The notes under the pieces were generated by a model. It was not told the DNA's origin, ran no database searches, and was given only the letters and a program-made list of their open reading frames with translations. From Candidatus Poribacteria bacterium (GTDB taxonomy: Bacteria > Poribacteria > WGA-4E > WGA-3G), in NCBI GenBank assembly GCA_003635315.1, contig PYJD01000009.1, positions 1 through 64,000 on the forward strand: DNA of 64,000 bases, given 5' to 3'. This document shows, one piece after another, positions 18,135 through 61,151 of the stretch; the first letter of the stretch is position 1; the number at the start of each line of letters is the position of its first letter. The position numbers and the translations under genes are program-made.

Positions 18135-18280
18135 CGTGTTGATAAGGTCTATCCTATCGGGTTTCGTGCTTCTACTCGAACTACCGTATAAGGTTATATT
18201 ATCAATTAGAAGTGGTATTATAGTAGATAAAATAAATTGAAGAAATATAAAAAACAAACATCACATTTTGTGTAAAACAG

Positions 18281-18309
18281 TTGACATATAAGTAAACATA
18301 CGTTACAAT
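18281..18309 (+). promoter_or_regulatory. Near-consensus sigma70 promoter of element copy A
   Basis: TTGACA (18281-18286), a 17-base spacer and TACAAT (18304-18309). It reads into element copy A rather than into any recognised gene. Equivalent promoters sit at the same end of copies B and C. Confidence 0.75.
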
Positions 18310-18903
18310 AACAGATAGAGAATTACTTTAATACGCATGCTAATACCTAACATAAGTAGAATCAATATGATTAAAGAAAATATATACACAGTTATACAAA
18401 AATCAATAATATCACACATTTTACCTGAGAATTCAGTGTTAAGAAATCCATCAAAAACACTTTTTTATATTTTTACACAAATTCGTAAATTGTCTCTAAA
18501 CATAGGTGGCTACTTACTTAACAGCGAATATACTAAAATAGGGGTGACAGAAAAAAGTTACGATTTCGTAACTTTTTCACATAATAGTAATAGTTTGTTT
18601 ATAAACTGTCCAATACAATCAAATCATCTCAAAAACAACCCAAACGCGCATGCTGCCTCTTTTGTTGTTTGGACTTGGGAACTCACGTTAGAATGCAAGA
18701 AAATCAGAAATATCATGACAGTAGGAATAAAAAATAATCCACAAAAAATACACAAAACTATTGGAATAGAAAAAGAAAAAAATGACACAAAAATCAGCAT
18801 TTTCACAAATTCTCATGTATTCAAAACAGTGTCTCTAAACCCAGTGTAGCACTGGCGGGAGAGGAAAATTACCAATGACACACATTGTGTCAAAAAGTGT
18901 AAC
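18310..18903 (+). ncRNA. Palindromic transcribed element, copy A (candidate structured RNA)
   Basis: Ordered landmarks shared with the copies at 56.1-56.7 and 60.35-60.97 kb: GTTACGATTTCGTAAC (18557-18572) flanked by A and T runs, which looks like an intrinsic terminator; a box reading GATTTTTGTGTC on the other strand (about 18780-18806); the hairpin CCAGTG-TAG-CACTGG (18841-18855); and the hairpin GACACACATTGTGTC (18877-18891) followed by AAAAAGTGTAAC. Stem sequences differ between copies but still pair. Either a roughly 260-nt RNA ending at the first palindrome or a longer transcript is possible. A mobile non-coding element is the alternative reading. Confidence 0.55.
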
Positions 18904-19048
18904 ATTTTAAACAAAAATAAAATATAAATATTACTATCGTTAACTGATAAAAAGGCATAATTATACCTTTGATTTTGCTATGAAAACACCATATTCTATG
19001 GTATACTGCAATTATAGTAAACATTGAAAATAATAACACAAAATCCCG

Positions 19049-19265: not shown

Positions 19266-20348
19266 ATGTTAAAACCAAATCCAGGTATCGAAACAATAAA
19301 AGCATATCAAGGTGGAAAACCAATTGAAGAGGTTAAAAGGGAACTGGGAATCTCTGACATTATCAAATTGGCTTCAAACGAAAATCCACTCGGTCCGTCT
19401 CCTTTAGCACAACAGGCAATCAAAGAAATATCAACGCAGGTACATTTCTATCCTGATGGAAATGCATTCTATCTTAAAGCAGATTTAGCGAAACATCTTA
19501 ATGTTACCGAAGAACATCTAATACTGACCAACGGTTCAAACGAAGTATTACAGCTCGTAGGAGAAACTTACTTAGGTCCTGGTGACGAGGTAATATATGC
19601 TGAAGGGGCATTTGTCGTATACGGTCTTGTCGCAACTGTTACAGGTGCAACGCCGGTTGTTGTACCAATGCAAAATGATACGCACCATTTACCAGCCATG
19701 GCTGACGCAATAACAGATAAAACCAAAGCAATCTTCATAGCAAATCCAAACAACCCTACTGGAACAATGGTTACTGCTAAGGAAACAGCACATTTTATGG
19801 CACAAGTTCCAGAAGATGTGTTGGTTGTTTTTGATGAAGCGTATTATGAATACGTAACACATCCAGATTATCCACATACACTACCATACGTTATGGATGG
19901 TCGTAATTTCATAATCACTCGAACCTTCTCTAAAATATACGGACTTGCAGGTTTAAGAATTGGGTATGGAATCGCACCACCCGACGTAATCGCAACTATG
20001 AATCCTGTTCGGCAACCATTCAACTGTAATGCTGTCGCACAAGCTGCCGCACGCGCAGCTATCACTGATACTGAATACGTTAAAGAAAGTCAATTGCTTA
20101 ACGAACAAGGTAAGGTGTTCCTATATAATGCATTCGACGATTTAGGTCTTCGTTATATAAAGACTGAAGGGAATTTCATCATGGTTTTTGTTAACCAAGC
20201 TGGAGCAAATATGGCGGAAGCAATGATGAAAAAAGGTGTGATTGTAAGAGCAATGAACAGCTACGGTTATCCTGACGCAATCAGAGTCACTATCGGCAAA
20301 CAGAAGGAAAACGAACGATTCTTCGAAGTCCTCTCTTCACTTATATGA
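19266..20348 (+). CDS. hisC: Histidinol-phosphate aminotransferase
   Basis: A PLP-dependent class I/II aminotransferase that converts imidazole-acetol phosphate and glutamate to histidinol phosphate in histidine synthesis. The 360-residue length fits HisC. Signatures: IKLASNENPLGPSP (about 33-46), ANPNNPTGT for substrate binding, VFDEAYYEY, and the PLP lysine in TRTFSKIYGLAGLRIGYG (about 219-236). Related enzymes act on aromatic or cobalamin precursors, and no other his gene is near, so substrate specificity is less certain than family. It is followed 65 bp later by ispG on the same strand. Confidence 0.88.
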   Translation: MLKPNPGIETIKAYQGGKPIEEVKRELGISDIIKLASNENPLGPSPLAQQAIKEISTQVHFYPDGNAFYLKADLAKHLNVTEEHLILTNGSNEVLQLVGETYLGPGDEVIYAEGAFVVYGLVATVTGATPVVVPMQNDTHHLPAMADAITDKTKAIFIANPNNPTGTMVTAKETAHFMAQVPEDVLVVFDEAYYEYVTHPDYPHTLPYVMDGRNFIITRTFSKIYGLAGLRIGYGIAPPDVIATMNPVRQPFNCNAVAQAAARAAITDTEYVKESQLLNEQGKVFLYNAFDDLGLRYIKTEGNFIMVFVNQAGANMAEAMMKKGVIVRAMNSYGYPDAIRVTIGKQKENERFFEVLSSLI

Positions 20349-54334: not shown

Positions 54335-55438
54335 TTACCAATCTACAACGGAACCGTCGTCTGGATCGTATGTGATAGGATTCAGCCAGTCATGATCAAT
54401 CTTATCTGCAATTGCATCTTCATCGAGTTCTATACCGAGTCCAGGACCTGTTGGTAATTCAACAAATCCATCTTTAAAGACAAATGGATTTTTTAGGTAG
54501 CCTTCACCAAGTGTTGTATGTTCCTGCATTACAAAGTTTGGGATAGAGGCATCTAACTGAATACATGCTGCTAAAGAAATAGGACCGAGAGGGTTATGTG
54601 GTGCGATCCCACCATAATAGGCTTCTGCCATACCAGCAATGATCCGGACTTCGTTGATTCCACCAGCATGACAGAGGTCAGGTTGTAAAATGGATGCAGC
54701 TTGTTTTTCTAATATTTCACGGAAACCCCATTTAGTAAAGATACGTTCTCCTGTGGCAATTGGTAGGTGTGTACCACGTGCGATTTCTGCCATGACATCA
54801 ACATTTTGACACTGGATCGGTTCTTCTACAAACATCGGTTGGTAAGGTTCCAATGCCTTGATGAGGAGTTTCGCTGTTTGGGGACTAACTGCTCCGTGAA
54901 AGTCGATGGCGAGGTCAACCTCTGTACCTGCTGCTTCGCGTAATGCGGCAAAATGGTCTACTGCTTTATCTACAAAAGCTTTGTTTTCAATAATACGAGG
55001 AGCCCTACCACCTGCGACACCTGTCTTAAATGCTGTAAAGCCTTTATCGATCCACTCTTTAATTCCATCTGGATCACCACCACCTCTATATAGTCTAATC
55101 CTATCCCGTGTAGGTCCACCAAAGAGTTGGTAGACAGGTACATCAAGCGCTTTACCAGCAAGATCCCAGAGTGCTTGTTCCACTCCGCTCAATGCACTTG
55201 TTAGGATAGGTCCTCCACGGTAAAAGGCGTGTCTATACATAGCTTGCCAGTGGTGGACAACCCGTCGTGGATCTTCTCCAATTAGATAGGGTGCAAGTTC
55301 ATCAACAGCTTGTGCACAAGTCTTGGCACGTCCTTCTAAAATAGGTTCACCGAGTCCTACCAATCCTTCATCAGTATGAATTTTCAGAAAAAGCCATCGT
55401 GGTTGTACAAGAAACGTCTCTAATTTAGTTATTTTCAT
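54335..55438 (-). CDS. Galactonate dehydratase-like enolase-superfamily enzyme
   Basis: A mandelate racemase/enolase superfamily dehydratase, 367 residues, close in pattern to E. coli DgoD (RWLFLKIHTDEGLVGLGEP, GRAKTCAQAV, FYRGGPIL). Metal ligands appear intact: Asp in AIDFHGAVSP, Glu in FVEEPIQ and Glu in ATGERIF; the catalytic His pair is seen in DFH and APHNPLGP. It probably dehydrates a D-galactonate-like acid, but the exact substrate is uncertain in this family. It is first in a leftward set with two TIM-barrel isomerases. Confidence 0.9.
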   Translation of the reverse strand: MKITKLETFLVQPRWLFLKIHTDEGLVGLGEPILEGRAKTCAQAVDELAPYLIGEDPRRVVHHWQAMYRHAFYRGGPILTSALSGVEQALWDLAGKALDVPVYQLFGGPTRDRIRLYRGGGDPDGIKEWIDKGFTAFKTGVAGGRAPRIIENKAFVDKAVDHFAALREAAGTEVDLAIDFHGAVSPQTAKLLIKALEPYQPMFVEEPIQCQNVDVMAEIARGTHLPIATGERIFTKWGFREILEKQAASILQPDLCHAGGINEVRIIAGMAEAYYGGIAPHNPLGPISLAACIQLDASIPNFVMQEHTTLGEGYLKNPFVFKDGFVELPTGPGLGIELDEDAIADKIDHDWLNPITYDPDDGSVVDW

Positions 55439-55822: not shown

Positions 55823-56095
55823 AAAAAATGTCTCATTAATTCAAGGTTTACTATAAATTGCTCACATTAGGAGTGATCATAATAATCTTGATAATGAGAA
55901 TTTAGTGTTTCTTCTGTTCGTAATGGGTAATCATTATTTTGAATATGTAAAAAATAAAAGACGAAGTAATTTTATGCCCGTTACGTATTTGTGAGATACA
56001 TTATTAATTACTATAACGTTAATTTGTTTTGGGTGTCAATCTCCTTTCATGAGTTTCGATTCATAAGTTTAGAATTTGTCGAAAAACGGGAAAAT

Positions 56096-56655
56096 GTTAC
56101 ACTTTTTCCTACATTCTGTAGGATTTATTTTCGATGAAATTATGGCTTTTAGACCAGTGCTGGACTGGGTTTATTACCATTGATTTTGAAGAAAGCACAA
56201 TTATGCATTTTCTGATTTTGTGTTATTTCTGTTTTTGATCTGATTTTTCACATATGTTAATATTATGTTGGCAATTATTAGTTTATAGCTGATAGTTGTC
56301 AGTTGTTGGTTATCAGTTAATTGAATTTCTGAACAAGGTTTTACTGTATATCTCAGGGTCTTTTTTTGAGACATATCTATATATTTTCTGATCCAGAATG
56401 TGTTGAATTTAATTGAGAAAGTTACGATATCGTAACATTTTGCATAATTATCTTTCATTTAGAAATAGTATTATCCTTGATTTTTAGTTTTTCAAGTTTT
56501 TCAAGTTGGTTTTTTAGAATCTCGGTATTTGAAGTGTCTTGCAGTAAGTCTGGCACTGTGTTCATAGCGAATTACTATAAGCAGGTGATTTTTTAAAAAT
56601 TTGAAAAACTTGAAAACTGTGTTCTTGGGTCAATCTGCTATTAACCGAGTAGGGT
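56096..56655 (-). ncRNA. Palindromic transcribed element, copy C (candidate structured RNA)
   Basis: The most diverged copy. Landmarks in the order of copies A and B: GTTACACTTTTT plus hairpin CCTACA-TTC-TGTAGG (56096-56122), hairpin CCAGT-GCTGG-ACTGG (56154-56168), the box CTGATTTTGTGTTATT (56212-56227), and GTTACGATATCGTAAC (56421-56436), here a perfect palindrome. The first hairpin has different stem bases from copies A and B but still pairs, a sign of selected structure. Predicted transcription runs leftward from about 56655. Confidence 0.5.
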
Positions 56656-56661
56656 AACGGG

Positions 56662-56690
56662 ATTGTATAGAATTGTCCGATGTTTATCAT
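56662..56690 (-). promoter_or_regulatory. Candidate promoter of element copy C
   Basis: On the minus strand, ATGATA (56690-56685), a 17-base spacer and TACAAT (56667-56662). The -35 box is weak, but the spacing and the distance to the GTTACG palindrome (226 bp) match copy B. Confidence 0.4.
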
Positions 56691-57035
56691 TTTAGATTTA
56701 GAATTATAATTTATCATAACATAATAGACCTTTGTTATTTATATATCACATTATACATGATGGTATTATAACATATACACAAATGATATTGCAACATAAT
56801 TTTTCACTTATGTTACATTAGATGTTCGTGTATCGATTTTCTTCATTATTTTTTTATCTGAGACGCGGATTTCGAATAATGAATGTGTGGTATTCTGAAT
56901 TGATGTGTAAAATAGAACATATTAATAGTCGTTAAAACATGGTATGGGTTTCAGGGGAATGGTAATATGTGGTAATATATTATTCTACAACAGCGTTAAA
57001 GAAATCAGAATAATAGATGACAAGGAGATCTCGCA

Positions 57036-58308: not shown

Positions 58309-58421
58309 ATACCGTTTCTATTAATTTTTTGTCCATTGCCTATTATTAGAAATGAAGCGGAATGTGGCACAAACTGGAAAGTTTATGCTACAAGAGAGAC
58401 ATCATATATCGGAAATGGTAT
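58309..58421. repeat. ATACCGTTTCT / GGAAATGGTAT terminal-inverted-repeat element
   Basis: A 113-bp element with 11-bp imperfect inverted ends and one copy of the AATGTGGCACAAACTGGAAA unit that is repeated three times at 61.2 kb. It lies just upstream of the next gene's ribosome-binding site and may affect its expression. Confidence 0.8.
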
Positions 58422-58452
58422 AAGTCACTTTCCAACAGTAGGAGATTTTATT

Positions 58453-59817
58453 ATGATTAGCTCAAATTCAATGAAAAACACATGGGTACTTTTTGTATTC
58501 CTCACTATTTATATATTCTTTTGTTATATGAATCTGTGTGTTGCTGATGAATTATCAAGAATAAATGGACGCGTAATTAATATCAATGGTGAACCCGTTG
58601 AAGGGGCATCAATTGTCCTCTTTTCTGTAACACTAAGGGATGGTCGTGTTGTTCCATTACGATTCACTCGTGGGTTAAATTATCCTTCATTTCAACCGAA
58701 ACCTGATGAATTGGATGGTGAACAACTTGATTTTAATGAGATTGAAAAACGGCTTTCAGTAACACCTATGGCAAAAACGGATGCTGATGGACAATTTAAC
58801 ATTAGCAAAGTCTATCAGGGAATGTATCAGATTGGTATTGGCAAAGAGAAAATACCTACTCAAGAGATGCATTTAAGGAACACTGATGTGCAAATATATA
58901 CGATACGGATTGGAGATGCAAAGATATTTCCACAAATGACATCAAGGGCAGAAGAAGATATTGTAATTGGTGTCAAAAATGAAACGAATATTGACGACAT
59001 AGAAATTACTGTAAAATTCCTTAAGCGATTAGAGGGTAAAGTTGTTTACAAAGATGGGATCCCATTTTCAAATAAACGGATTAGTATTTATTTGCGATAT
59101 TCCCAATTAGATGGTACAGGACCCCGTCAATTAAGTGTTACAGGCTCCCGTCAATTAAGTGGTACAGTTGCCACTGATAACGAAGGAAATTTCGTTTATT
59201 ACATTAATCAATCTGGCGTATATACACTATACGCGCGTTATAGGGGACATAATACTGTATCAGGATTTGTAAATATGATAGAGGAAGGTGAATATAACCC
59301 TGTGGTTTTGTCGTTTGATGACATTACTCATAAACAAAGCACTACAGAATTTGCTATGCCAGAAACCCCGATAATGTATTTTGGTGTACTAAATGTATGG
59401 GTCATCAATCCTGAGAATCAGCATCTATACAAGAGAATATCATGTAAGGACTGGGATGATGCACAAGAACAAGCTGCCAAAGAAGATGCTCATCTTGTAA
59501 CAATTAATAGCGAAAGTGAACAGATTTGGCTTGAGGTATTCTTTAAACGCGGTCCGAGTTGGATAGGATTGACTGACATTGAGACAGAAGGTGAATGGAA
59601 ATGGGATACAGGTGAACCGCTTACATATACAAATTGGATTGATGAAGCATGGTATCCAAACGAACTTGAGGATAGCGAGAAGAATTATGCCATCATCTCC
59701 TATGCAGATGGTAAATGGGATGCCATTGGGAGAGGACATCCAGTATGGCAAGATACACGTACAGCAATTATTGAGAAGGATGGATTAAAAGCTAAAAAAC
59801 CTGAGAAAAATCGGTAG
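58453..59817 (+). CDS. Exported C-type lectin domain protein
   Basis: The ATG at 58453 has AGGAG 8 bases upstream and gives 454 residues. A longer frame from 58336 would begin inside a repeat element. Domains: a signal segment (about 7-32), a CNA-B or carboxypeptidase-regulatory-like domain (INGRVININGEPVEGASIVL), a second beta domain (LEGKVVYKDGIPFSNKRISI), and a C-terminal C-type lectin (LVTINSESEQIWLEVFF, SWIGLTDIETEGEWKW, LTYTNW). The middle carries a 24-bp in-frame tandem repeat (TGPRQLS / TGSRQLS, about 59116-59163). It is a paralogue of the preceding gene; the ligand is unknown. Confidence 0.85.
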   Translation: MISSNSMKNTWVLFVFLTIYIFFCYMNLCVADELSRINGRVININGEPVEGASIVLFSVTLRDGRVVPLRFTRGLNYPSFQPKPDELDGEQLDFNEIEKRLSVTPMAKTDADGQFNISKVYQGMYQIGIGKEKIPTQEMHLRNTDVQIYTIRIGDAKIFPQMTSRAEEDIVIGVKNETNIDDIEITVKFLKRLEGKVVYKDGIPFSNKRISIYLRYSQLDGTGPRQLSVTGSRQLSGTVATDNEGNFVYYINQSGVYTLYARYRGHNTVSGFVNMIEEGEYNPVVLSFDDITHKQSTTEFAMPETPIMYFGVLNVWVINPENQHLYKRISCKDWDDAQEQAAKEDAHLVTINSESEQIWLEVFFKRGPSWIGLTDIETEGEWKWDTGEPLTYTNWIDEAWYPNELEDSEKNYAIISYADGKWDAIGRGHPVWQDTRTAIIEKDGLKAKKPEKNR

Positions 59818-60275: not shown

Positions 60276-60351
60276 TAGTATAGAAACCTTCTTTTTTGTT
60301 GGTTTTTCTATTTTCACATATGTAATATTATATGTGTATTATGTTAAAAAT

Positions 60352-60937
60352 GTTACACTTTTTGACACATTGTGTGTCATTAGTAAAACGGCTGTCCGCC
60401 CTGTCACAGACTGTGTTCATCGGTGTTTTTTTTAGAATAGTAAAATTTCTTAAATTGTATGATTTTGTGTCCTTCTTCTATTTTTTCTAAGACCATCTGA
60501 TACATACTTTTGTAATACAATTTCTAAAAAATAATATCTCATTATTATTGAAATATAACCTTTTAGGTTGTTAGCTATTAGATGGTATCTCCAAAAACCA
60601 TCCATTCGGTTTTTTTCTCAGAAATGGTGTAGGTGATGCTGTTGTTTTTAAGATTATTTTGAATGTATTGGATAGTCATTAGAAAGTGTCCTGTTATTTG
60701 TAAAAAGTTACGAAATCGTAACTTTTTTCTGTCACCCCAATTTTAGTATAGTCGCTGTGATGTTAGTATCTGTCAGTGTTTACAGGCAATTTACGAATTA
60801 GATTTAAAAAAACAAAAAAGTACACTTGGTGGATTCCTTCGTAGTACATATCTCATTAATCTTATCATTTAGGTTTGTAGACATCTGAGATTTTATTTTC
60901 ATTTCACAACAACTCTTCATGTGGTGTTTTTATTGTA
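60352..60937 (-). ncRNA. Palindromic transcribed element, copy B (candidate structured RNA)
   Basis: Landmarks: GTTACACTTTTTGACACA...TGTGTC hairpin (60352-60379), hairpin CACAG-A-CTGTG (60405-60415), the box ATGATTTTGTGTC (60460-60472), GTTACGAAATCGTAAC (60707-60722) flanked by A and T runs, then TCTGTCACCCC and TTTTAGTATA (60727-60750), which match copy A almost exactly. Transcription is predicted leftward from about 60937; the first terminator-like palindrome would give an RNA of about 235 nt. Confidence 0.55.
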
Positions 60938-60943
60938 ATATAT

Positions 60944-60972
60944 ATAGTAACATAATAAAAATAGGGTGTCAA
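60944..60972 (-). promoter_or_regulatory. Candidate sigma70 promoter of element copy B
   Basis: On the minus strand, TTGACA (60972-60967), a 17-base spacer and TACTAT (60949-60944). It has the same placement relative to the GTTACG palindrome (222 bp) as in the other copies. Confidence 0.65.
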
Positions 60973-61151
60973 GGAAAAAGTTATATTCTATGATACTATA
61001 GTGAAGTTTTGTCAGAATCGCGGATTTCGCGGATGTGAAACCCTTCCCCTACGATAAGTATATGGACAGGTTTACCAAAACATTTATTGAATCTACATAT
61101 AGTTTGTGCTACAAAAAAGAGAAAGATTCATTTATAAATGGTATAATAGTA

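Follow-up and report, generated by a model that had tools for sequence, protein, structure and literature searches.

Dispersed palindromic repeats of a Poribacteria genome as putative solo copies of the leader of a lineage-specific gene

Introduction

Neisserial Correia elements and pneumococcal BOX elements are oriented mobile promoter or riboregulatory repeats, which are modular, lie near genes and can act on their neighbours. The origin of a regulon by the spread of ready-made control elements is, in our view, usually argued from old traces. Work on REPIN/RAYT systems describes many dispersed extragenic palindromic elements, whose sequence groups are tied to specific adjoining genes and whose populations are long-lived (PMC3116915, PMC8049555). 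Repeats of the kind described here were named in none of the titles listed by literature searches that covered few subscription journals, nor by the terms searched for in the accessible text of a Poribacteria genome paper (PMC3909097).

The window analysed here, a stretch of 64,000 nt, is part of contig C9 of a 4.33-Mb, 50-contig Poribacteria genome (G000). The comparison set consisted of 145 genomes, 58 of the same bacterial family, including the genus-mate G011, and 87 others. In this lineage, many solo copies coexist with a parent leader and the gene behind it in the same genomes of more than one species, together with signs of per-copy constraint and a sharp placement rule, so that the question of regulon origin becomes testable with one protein and ~145 sites.

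Results

Copies in the window

The original prediction had described three copies of a new family of transcribed palindromic elements. Inspection of the sequences found all three, with their landmarks in the claimed order. The repeat family stands, whereas the number of three does not, as the genome contains ~145 copies. Copy 2 belongs to family B, unlike copies 1 and 3, which are of family A.

Copy 1 is a family A element at 18228..18970 on the plus strand. Its ends are approximate and were placed near where the shared blocks of other copies begin and end, at the AAATAAATTGAAGAAAT head on the 5′ side and ~75 nt beyond the end hairpin on the 3′ side. The head carries a sigma-70-like promoter (TTGACA-17-TACAAT, 11/12; 18281..18309, +), which is kept in the family A consensus. 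The 5′ domain (18459..18577, +; limits by eye) is composed of a T-rich strand, a CTNTAAAC hairpin region and A6-GTTACGATTTCGTAAC-T5, where the genome palindrome scan located the 16-bp palindrome GTTACGATTTCGTAAC at 18557..18572. The 3′ domain (18802..18915, +), which was folded and which matches the covariance model R1 at 96.9 bits, contains the middle hairpin CCAGTG/CACTGG and the end hairpin GACACA-CAT-TGTGTC, followed by AAAAAGTGTAAC (18877..18903, +; the hairpin itself at 18877-18891). The co-oriented gene on its 3′ side (19266..20348, +) encodes a class I/II aminotransferase (PF00155, Pfam), which is HisC-like by our reading.

Copy 2 (56010..56760, −; approximate ends) is 86% identical over 747 nt to a second family B copy in locus L036. 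Its palindrome, GTTACGATATCGTAAC, was found by the same scan at 56421..56436, and its 3′ domain (56084..56207, −; 89.2 bits with R1) contains a CCAGT/ACTGG middle hairpin and, within 56096-56125 on the minus strand, the end hairpin CCTACA/TGTAGG beside AAAAAGTGTAAC. At its 3′ end lies an outward promoter (TTGACA-18-TATAGT, 11/12; 56010..56039, −) of a type common to most B copies, being present in 12 of 17 B copies versus 4 of 54 A copies and 1 of 58 C copies. The co-oriented gene on the 3′ side (54335..55438, −) belongs to the MR/MLE enolase superfamily (Pfam).

Copy 3 (60301..61030, −; approximate ends) belongs to family A and bears the second head type. It carries a sigma-70-like promoter (TTGACA-17-TACTAT, 10/12; 60944..60972, −), the palindrome GTTACGATTTCGTAAC at 60707..60722 (same scan), a 3′ domain at 60340..60454 (−; 119.4 bits with R1) and, within 60352-60381 (−), the end hairpin GACACA/TGTGTC beside AAAAAGTGTAAC. 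The gene on its 3′ side (58336..59817, +; Lectin_C) is antisense to the element, which makes copy 3 an exception to the placement rule described below.

The three palindromes and the end-hairpin stems, one sequence in copies 1 and 3 and another in copy 2, are as had been predicted. The proposed promoters hold for copies 1 and 3, whereas the pair in copy 2 (ATGATA-17-TACAAT, 9/12) is ordinary, and the numbers of promoter-like matches in the three regions do not exceed those in shuffled sequences (7 vs 6.4, 10 vs 11.6 and 4 vs 6.4). For the palindrome, which had been suggested to be terminator-like, the terminator scan gave no site in any of the three copies on the strand of the element. Four sites were called in the surroundings of copy 2, all on the opposite strand (0.2 expected) and including the palindrome and the end hairpin; they span 56107-56436 on the plus strand, where the unit might terminate transcripts that enter from the opposite direction. 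The 3′ domains in the window fold ordinarily (z = −1.7, −1.7 and −1.1).

Copy number and families

Across the genome, the palindromes were found at 65 places with at most one mismatch (0 for the reversed control) and the end motifs at 150 places with at most two mismatches (6 for the control), and BLAST gave at least 74 matching pieces with copy 1 and at least 60 with copy 3. The model R1, built from an alignment of 43 distinct 3′ domains, identified at least 145 copies scoring 71.7-122 bits. Below them is a gap in score, followed by five matches at 37-40 bits (E = 1e-5 to 6e-5), which are 5′ palindrome domains of family A, from sisters of copy 1. Because R1, a 3′-domain model, also matches these 5′ domains, the two domains of the A element are related.

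The copies fall into three related families, A (window copies 1 and 3, with two head types), B (copy 2) and C, which has no match in the window. Common to all three is an ordered 3′ domain consisting of a box ACACAAAATC, the middle hairpin, the end hairpin and AAAAAGTGTAAC, where the box is the reverse of the GATTTTGTGT box of the original prediction. Families A and B also carry the GTTACGAWWTCGTAAC palindrome. Sorting by script of 145 distinct profile matches in the fetched loci gave 59 C, 55 A, 18 B, 7 of G011 and 6 unassigned. The elements are ~350-750 nt long and mosaic, with A heads joined to C bodies, and their number differs greatly among related species. By our reading, a C copy is nested within a B copy (locus L093), in agreement with the view that the copies are mobile. 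Inspection of the aligned ends, of which the left ones are mosaic, showed no terminal inverted repeats or target duplications, and clustering of the ORFs over the loci fetched by then gave no mobile neighbour gene common to the copies. The window contains no Rfam match. When E values up to 3 were allowed in eight loci, the matches were RNase P, next to one of the copies, and a single one below its gathering score; no Rfam family fits the unit.

Other observations were made in the same loci. Tandem units of ~314 nt, each with GTTACGATTTCGTAAC, lie at two contig ends (L090, C12:1-1000; L091, C33:72474-73602), possibly one array split by the assembly, and one of these ends adjoins a paralogue of the leader's gene. 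The window and many loci also contain palindromes of the GGTTCGGTTTGAAACCGAACC type, TGTGCTACA repeats and MITE-like units bounded by TACCATTTCTAAGAAA, one of which seems to have been inserted in many A copies. In G011, the end motif of a family C element precedes the gene for RNase P RNA by ~190 nt on the same strand (L111, 1115-1322).

Placement relative to genes

Of 131 copies in their own genome, G000, 112 point with their 3′ side at a co-oriented next ORF and 12 at an antisense one (112/124, p = 1.7e-21), the ORF being absent or unclear for the other 7; the 5′ side is unbiased (59 vs 55). A co-oriented 3′-side gene was also found for 22 of 23 copies in G011 and for 16 of 19 and 20 of 20 copies in other species, giving 170 of 186 across the species examined. 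These counts omit the three window copies and the copies lacking a 3′-side ORF (7 of 131 in the own genome, 2 of 25 in G011 and 1 of 20 in other species), and include the parent copies in L126 and L286. As R1 had matched the opposite strand of the G007 and G013 units, these were oriented manually by their promoters for the count.

The contexts of the own copies were tandem-sense in 52 cases, tandem-antisense in 6, divergent in 46 and convergent in 3. Other repeats in 464 kb of the genome gave 11, 10, 6 and 7, respectively, in totals that omit one repeat with 13 places, all divergent and possibly a single array, and the sampled gaps of the genome comprised 30 divergent (13.9 kb) and 25 convergent (6.0 kb) ones. 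The difference in placement from the control is significant (Fisher p = 3e-4 and 7e-4), where the divergent and convergent counts matter more than the strand counts, which mean little since the control set is small and some of its repeats are palindromic.

The genes behind the copies include that of the GlyRS alpha subunit behind a C copy (Pfam) and, judging from the N-termini, probably rpsB, nuoA, hisH, purD, ileS and others; they look functionally mixed, so that no coherent regulon is visible. At two closely read loci, the promoter of the downstream gene seemingly lies between the copy and the gene. A ribosome-site-like sequence directly follows the motif in 1 of 129 own copies, which is presumably the parent described below. 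The location of ~145 copies mostly before genes, pointing at them, makes them look like shared gene switches and not like junk DNA.

Pairing and constraint on single copies

In the alignment of 43 domains, the end-hairpin stem appears as GACACA/TGTGTC, CCTACA/TGTAGG and GTCACA/TGTGAC, with 96% of the cells paired. There are 44 double-change cells, compared with 16.8 in shuffled alignments and at most 13 in slid versions, which bears out the claim that pairing survives the change of bases. The two main hairpin types account for 74 and 55 of 180 hairpin-like places, some of which arise by chance. Mismatched pairs are not enriched in G-U (4 G-U vs 19 A-C, and 5 vs 7 in a second count), a weak test of strand, and a DNA palindrome recognised by a dimer would explain the symmetric change just as well. 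Of the structured RNA element originally envisaged, the kept pairing and the promoter-bearing heads are retained; the product need not be a free structured RNA, given the lack of G-U enrichment and the equal fit of a DNA palindrome.

Divergence is distributed unevenly within the element. In 37 nearest pairs of family A copies, divided into three classes, the spacers differ by 8.1, 15.5 and 25.8%, whereas the palindrome block differs at 2/297, 4/270 and 5/431 sites (0.7, 1.5 and 1.2%), so that the palindrome with its flanking A/T tracts differs at 11 of 998 compared sites between nearest copies. Values for the end hairpin block (2.3, 8.9 and 10.5%) fall in between. All six hairpin pairs are kept in 105 of 128 copies and exact AAAAAGTGTAAC in 125 of 132; the alignment A1 was picked by a pattern containing AAAAGTGTAAC, so that the block is bound to be invariant in that alignment, and the less selected count is that of the exact 12-mer in 125 of 132 profile matches. 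The copies thus look individually constrained, a pattern which short gene conversion between copies could mimic.

The type of the end hairpin (P3) was also followed on trees of the remainder of the element, in which SH-aLRT support of at least 80 is found for 20 of 53 and 20 of 45 branches. It changes 17 times in family C (shuffled mean 18.2) and 5 times in family A (mean 4.85). This scatter indicates exchange of a small hairpin module or repeated switching, and changes of P3 as if shuffled would be expected if sites switch between paralogues.

A reading frame of family A passing through the palindrome (VTEKSYDFVTF) was rejected as coding. The three codon positions vary about equally (0.160, 0.151 and 0.156), pN/pS is 0.94, and the indels are mostly not multiples of three. 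Stops make up 112 of 8125 codons in this frame (1.4%) versus 663-745 (8-9%) in the other frames, and its openness is read as a chance property of the consensus.

The parent leader in related genomes

The model R1 reaches 23 of the 58 family genomes, most of them weakly. A second model, R2, constructed from 18 cleaner units of relatives, matches 30 of the 145 genomes, all of which are among the 58 of the family, and none of the 87 others. The units of relatives consist, in order, of a promoter-like sequence (by eye), 100-170 nt, a hairpin CTATAAACCC..GGGTTTATAG, AATTTACAAA, a palindrome, A6, a palindrome, a T-run and an AAGGAG-like sequence. Three helices of these units show 32 double-change cells against 10.9 in shuffled alignments, and there is support for both a-b/c-d and a-d/b-c as alternative pairings, the alternative being nearly as good. 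Three units of G003 and G017 fold very stably (z = −6.5, −6.4 and −5.3), and two other units have z values of −2.1 and −3.4. In the G003 and G017 units, the two palindromes are ~21 bp apart from centre to centre by our count, corresponding to two turns of DNA.

In several genomes, the unit lies directly before the start of one gene. In G000, this parent locus consists of a unit at C16:8833-8956, the lowest-scoring of the 145 R1 copies, and a gene which starts 8 nt further on (C16:8964-9590; L126). R2 matches were found 9-24 nt before the gene for the same protein in G003, G005, G013, G016, G017 and G023, where the G023 gene begins with MKLQEKHKEFAV, so that the unit precedes the gene by 8-24 nt across these seven genomes. 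The middle hairpin of the parent is CTATAAACCC..GGGTTTATAG, accompanied by one or two palindromes, and most parent leaders examined proceed from palindrome to T-run, AAGGAG-like sequence and ATG; those of L091 and L317 differ. The parent leader of G011 carries CCTACA/TGTAGG-AAAAGTGTAAC and that of G000 GTCACA/TGTGAC-AAAAAGTGTGAC. Upstream of the G000 gene, in tandem, lies a second paralogue (C16:8161-8757), which is interrupted by one stop.

The unit and the gene occur together in 27 of the 58 family genomes; 3 have the unit only (G022, G026 and G055, without a detected gene), 16 the gene only and 12 neither (p = 0.006). Neither was found in the searched genomes outside the family. Many short fragments of the N-terminus of the protein, covering its first 24, 33 or 43 residues, were detected in G002, G008, G009 and G014. 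As solo units of G009 run into such a fragment, those solo copies derive from the 5′ end of the gene. Some of the fragments open long reading frames, as if the start of the gene were joined to other sequence.

The linked protein

The product of the parent gene is a lineage-specific protein of ~205-290 amino acids. A search with the G000 protein matches 41 of the 58 family genomes and none of the 87 others, and a profile matches 43 of 84 genomes of the phylum, all within the family. Sixteen members of the protein family align. Fifteen of them match DUF2280 (PF10045) weakly, at best with 2.4e-6, through the N-terminal ~35 residues; the two G023 proteins score 16.2 and 20.4 bits, against the Pfam cut-off of 24, and the G000 protein has no DUF2280 match at E = 0.1. 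A weak match to phrog_546 was obtained for 9 of the 16. None of the 18 families listed by the Pfam scan of the sixteen members is a transposase. In the predicted model (pLDDT 81), long helices come after three short ones at the N-terminus, where a putative HTH would lie. Foldseek gave no match to the predicted fold at E = 0.001 in the PDB or a viral library, and no match was found by sequence in the PDB, by tblastn in phages or by PADLOC.

The type of palindrome mostly goes with the N-terminal type of the encoded protein, as far as the leader and protein sequences suggest. KLTDIV-like N-termini (7 leaders) are accompanied by GTTACAC..GTGTAAC or near variants, TR.EV-like ones by TACC..GGTA, and KPSEIL.NF (5 leaders) by GTTATAAAAACGTAAC; the exceptions are L317 (TACAG..CTGTA) and L091, which has no clear palindrome before the gene. 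As both types follow clades, shared ancestry alone could explain this match.

Discussion

The explanation preferred here, to which we give an even chance, is that the repeats are solo copies of the leader of an autoregulated gene, dispersed before other genes as putative binding or attenuation sites. Within the genomes searched, the parent gene family is confined to a single family of Poribacteria. The solo copies have no ribosome site, sit co-oriented before many other genes and keep their palindromes while their spacers decay. Most likely, the protein recognises the palindromes both in its own leader, which would amount to autoregulation, and in the solo copies. The copies would thereby be the leaders or operators of a single large regulon, in which the two or three palindrome types per genome would be the sites of different paralogues, and they would have spread as non-autonomous mobile DNA. 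We lean towards recognition on DNA rather than on nascent RNA. The symmetric change of half-sites, the lack of G-U intermediates, the ~21-bp spacing of the palindromes and the discrete site types would argue for DNA; an RNA target would be favoured by the stable folding seen in relatives and by the T-run that precedes the ribosome site.

An extension of this explanation, possible yet doubtful in our estimation, is a self-spreading regulatory network, in which a mobile operator-leader of an HTH gene would place copies before genes, some would be recruited and selected, and paralogues would compete for sites that switch type. In a more extreme form, the protein would be a domesticated small terminase and the copies its packaging sites.

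Alternatively, the copies could be passenger DNA, that is, non-autonomous mobile elements without a host function, which insert preferentially beside the starts of genes and in a fixed orientation, their conserved blocks serving transposition only. The nested copy in L093, the joining of A heads to C bodies and the very different copy numbers of related species are what such elements would produce. The low divergence of the palindrome block even in the closest pairs (2/297 where the spacers differ by 8.1%) is unexpected for dead inserts, however, the inspected alignments showed neither terminal inverted repeats nor target duplications, and the small set of other repeats lacks such a bias of placement, so that we consider this explanation unlikely.

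A device acting at the RNA level is rated as about equally unlikely. The unit would be a cis-acting attenuator or structured RNA, in which hairpin 2 with its T-run would terminate transcription conditionally, whether or not a protein ligand takes part. The G003 and G017 units, where a middle hairpin and a long hairpin ending in a U-run just before the AAGGAG-like sequence fold very stably, are in accordance with this, as are the compensatory changes in three helices and the support for both alternative pairings. The copies in the window, on the contrary, fold ordinarily and lack called terminators on the strand of the element, there is no excess of G-U intermediates, the symmetric change of half-sites also suits a dimeric DNA-binding protein, and the palindromes of the G003 and G017 units are spaced by two turns of DNA.

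A domesticated phage-type system, in which the protein is small-terminase-like and the copies are its pac-like packaging or recognition sites, is very improbable. Small terminases bind sites near their own gene, as the protein would do here. Fifteen of the 16 members match DUF2280, which one report places next to the large terminase gene of an Acinetobacter prophage (PMC7760358). On the other side, both G023 proteins score below the DUF2280 cut-off, the bias towards gene starts is left unexplained, no large terminase was matched in G000, and the six such genes of G009 all lie more than 5 kb from the protein genes listed. These six terminase-large-subunit-like genes are on one contig and are 84-100% identical to the query; one of them lies ~620 nt 5′ of the element L210, in divergent orientation.

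A decayed protein-coding transposon read through the palindrome is hardly credible for the elements as they now stand, in line with the original prediction: ~200 codons are nearly open in the A consensus with few stops, against which stand the codon-position, pN/pS and indel results, the closed matching frame in families B and C (our reading) and a conservation that is far from uniform.

The explanation by solo copies of an autoregulated leader can be compared with known systems. The DUF2280 phage proteins, which occupy the position of small terminases, resemble the Poribacteria protein in its N-terminal ~35 residues; the rest of that protein is unrelated by the tools used, no large terminase gene adjoins, and the gene occurs in several copies per genome with a conserved leader. 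As in attenuator leaders with intrinsic terminators, the parent leaders present a hairpin, a T-run and a ribosome-site-like sequence before the start codon. Unlike those leaders, the unit is dispersed as ~145 solo copies and fits no Rfam family.

As in REPIN/RAYT systems, dispersed palindromic elements share sequence with the DNA beside a linked gene. The elements differ from plain REP DNA, as had been proposed, in that they are ~350-750 nt long with the architecture of a leader instead of being short REP doublets, and in that 170 of 186 face a co-oriented gene whereas REPs are random in extragenic space; the linked gene, moreover, shows no tyrosine-transposase match in the comparison of 16 members with Pfam. 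Like Correia and BOX elements, the Poribacteria repeats are modular and lie near genes. In contrast to them, the Poribacteria unit is also the leader of a defined HTH-like gene, with palindromes that change with the product of that gene.
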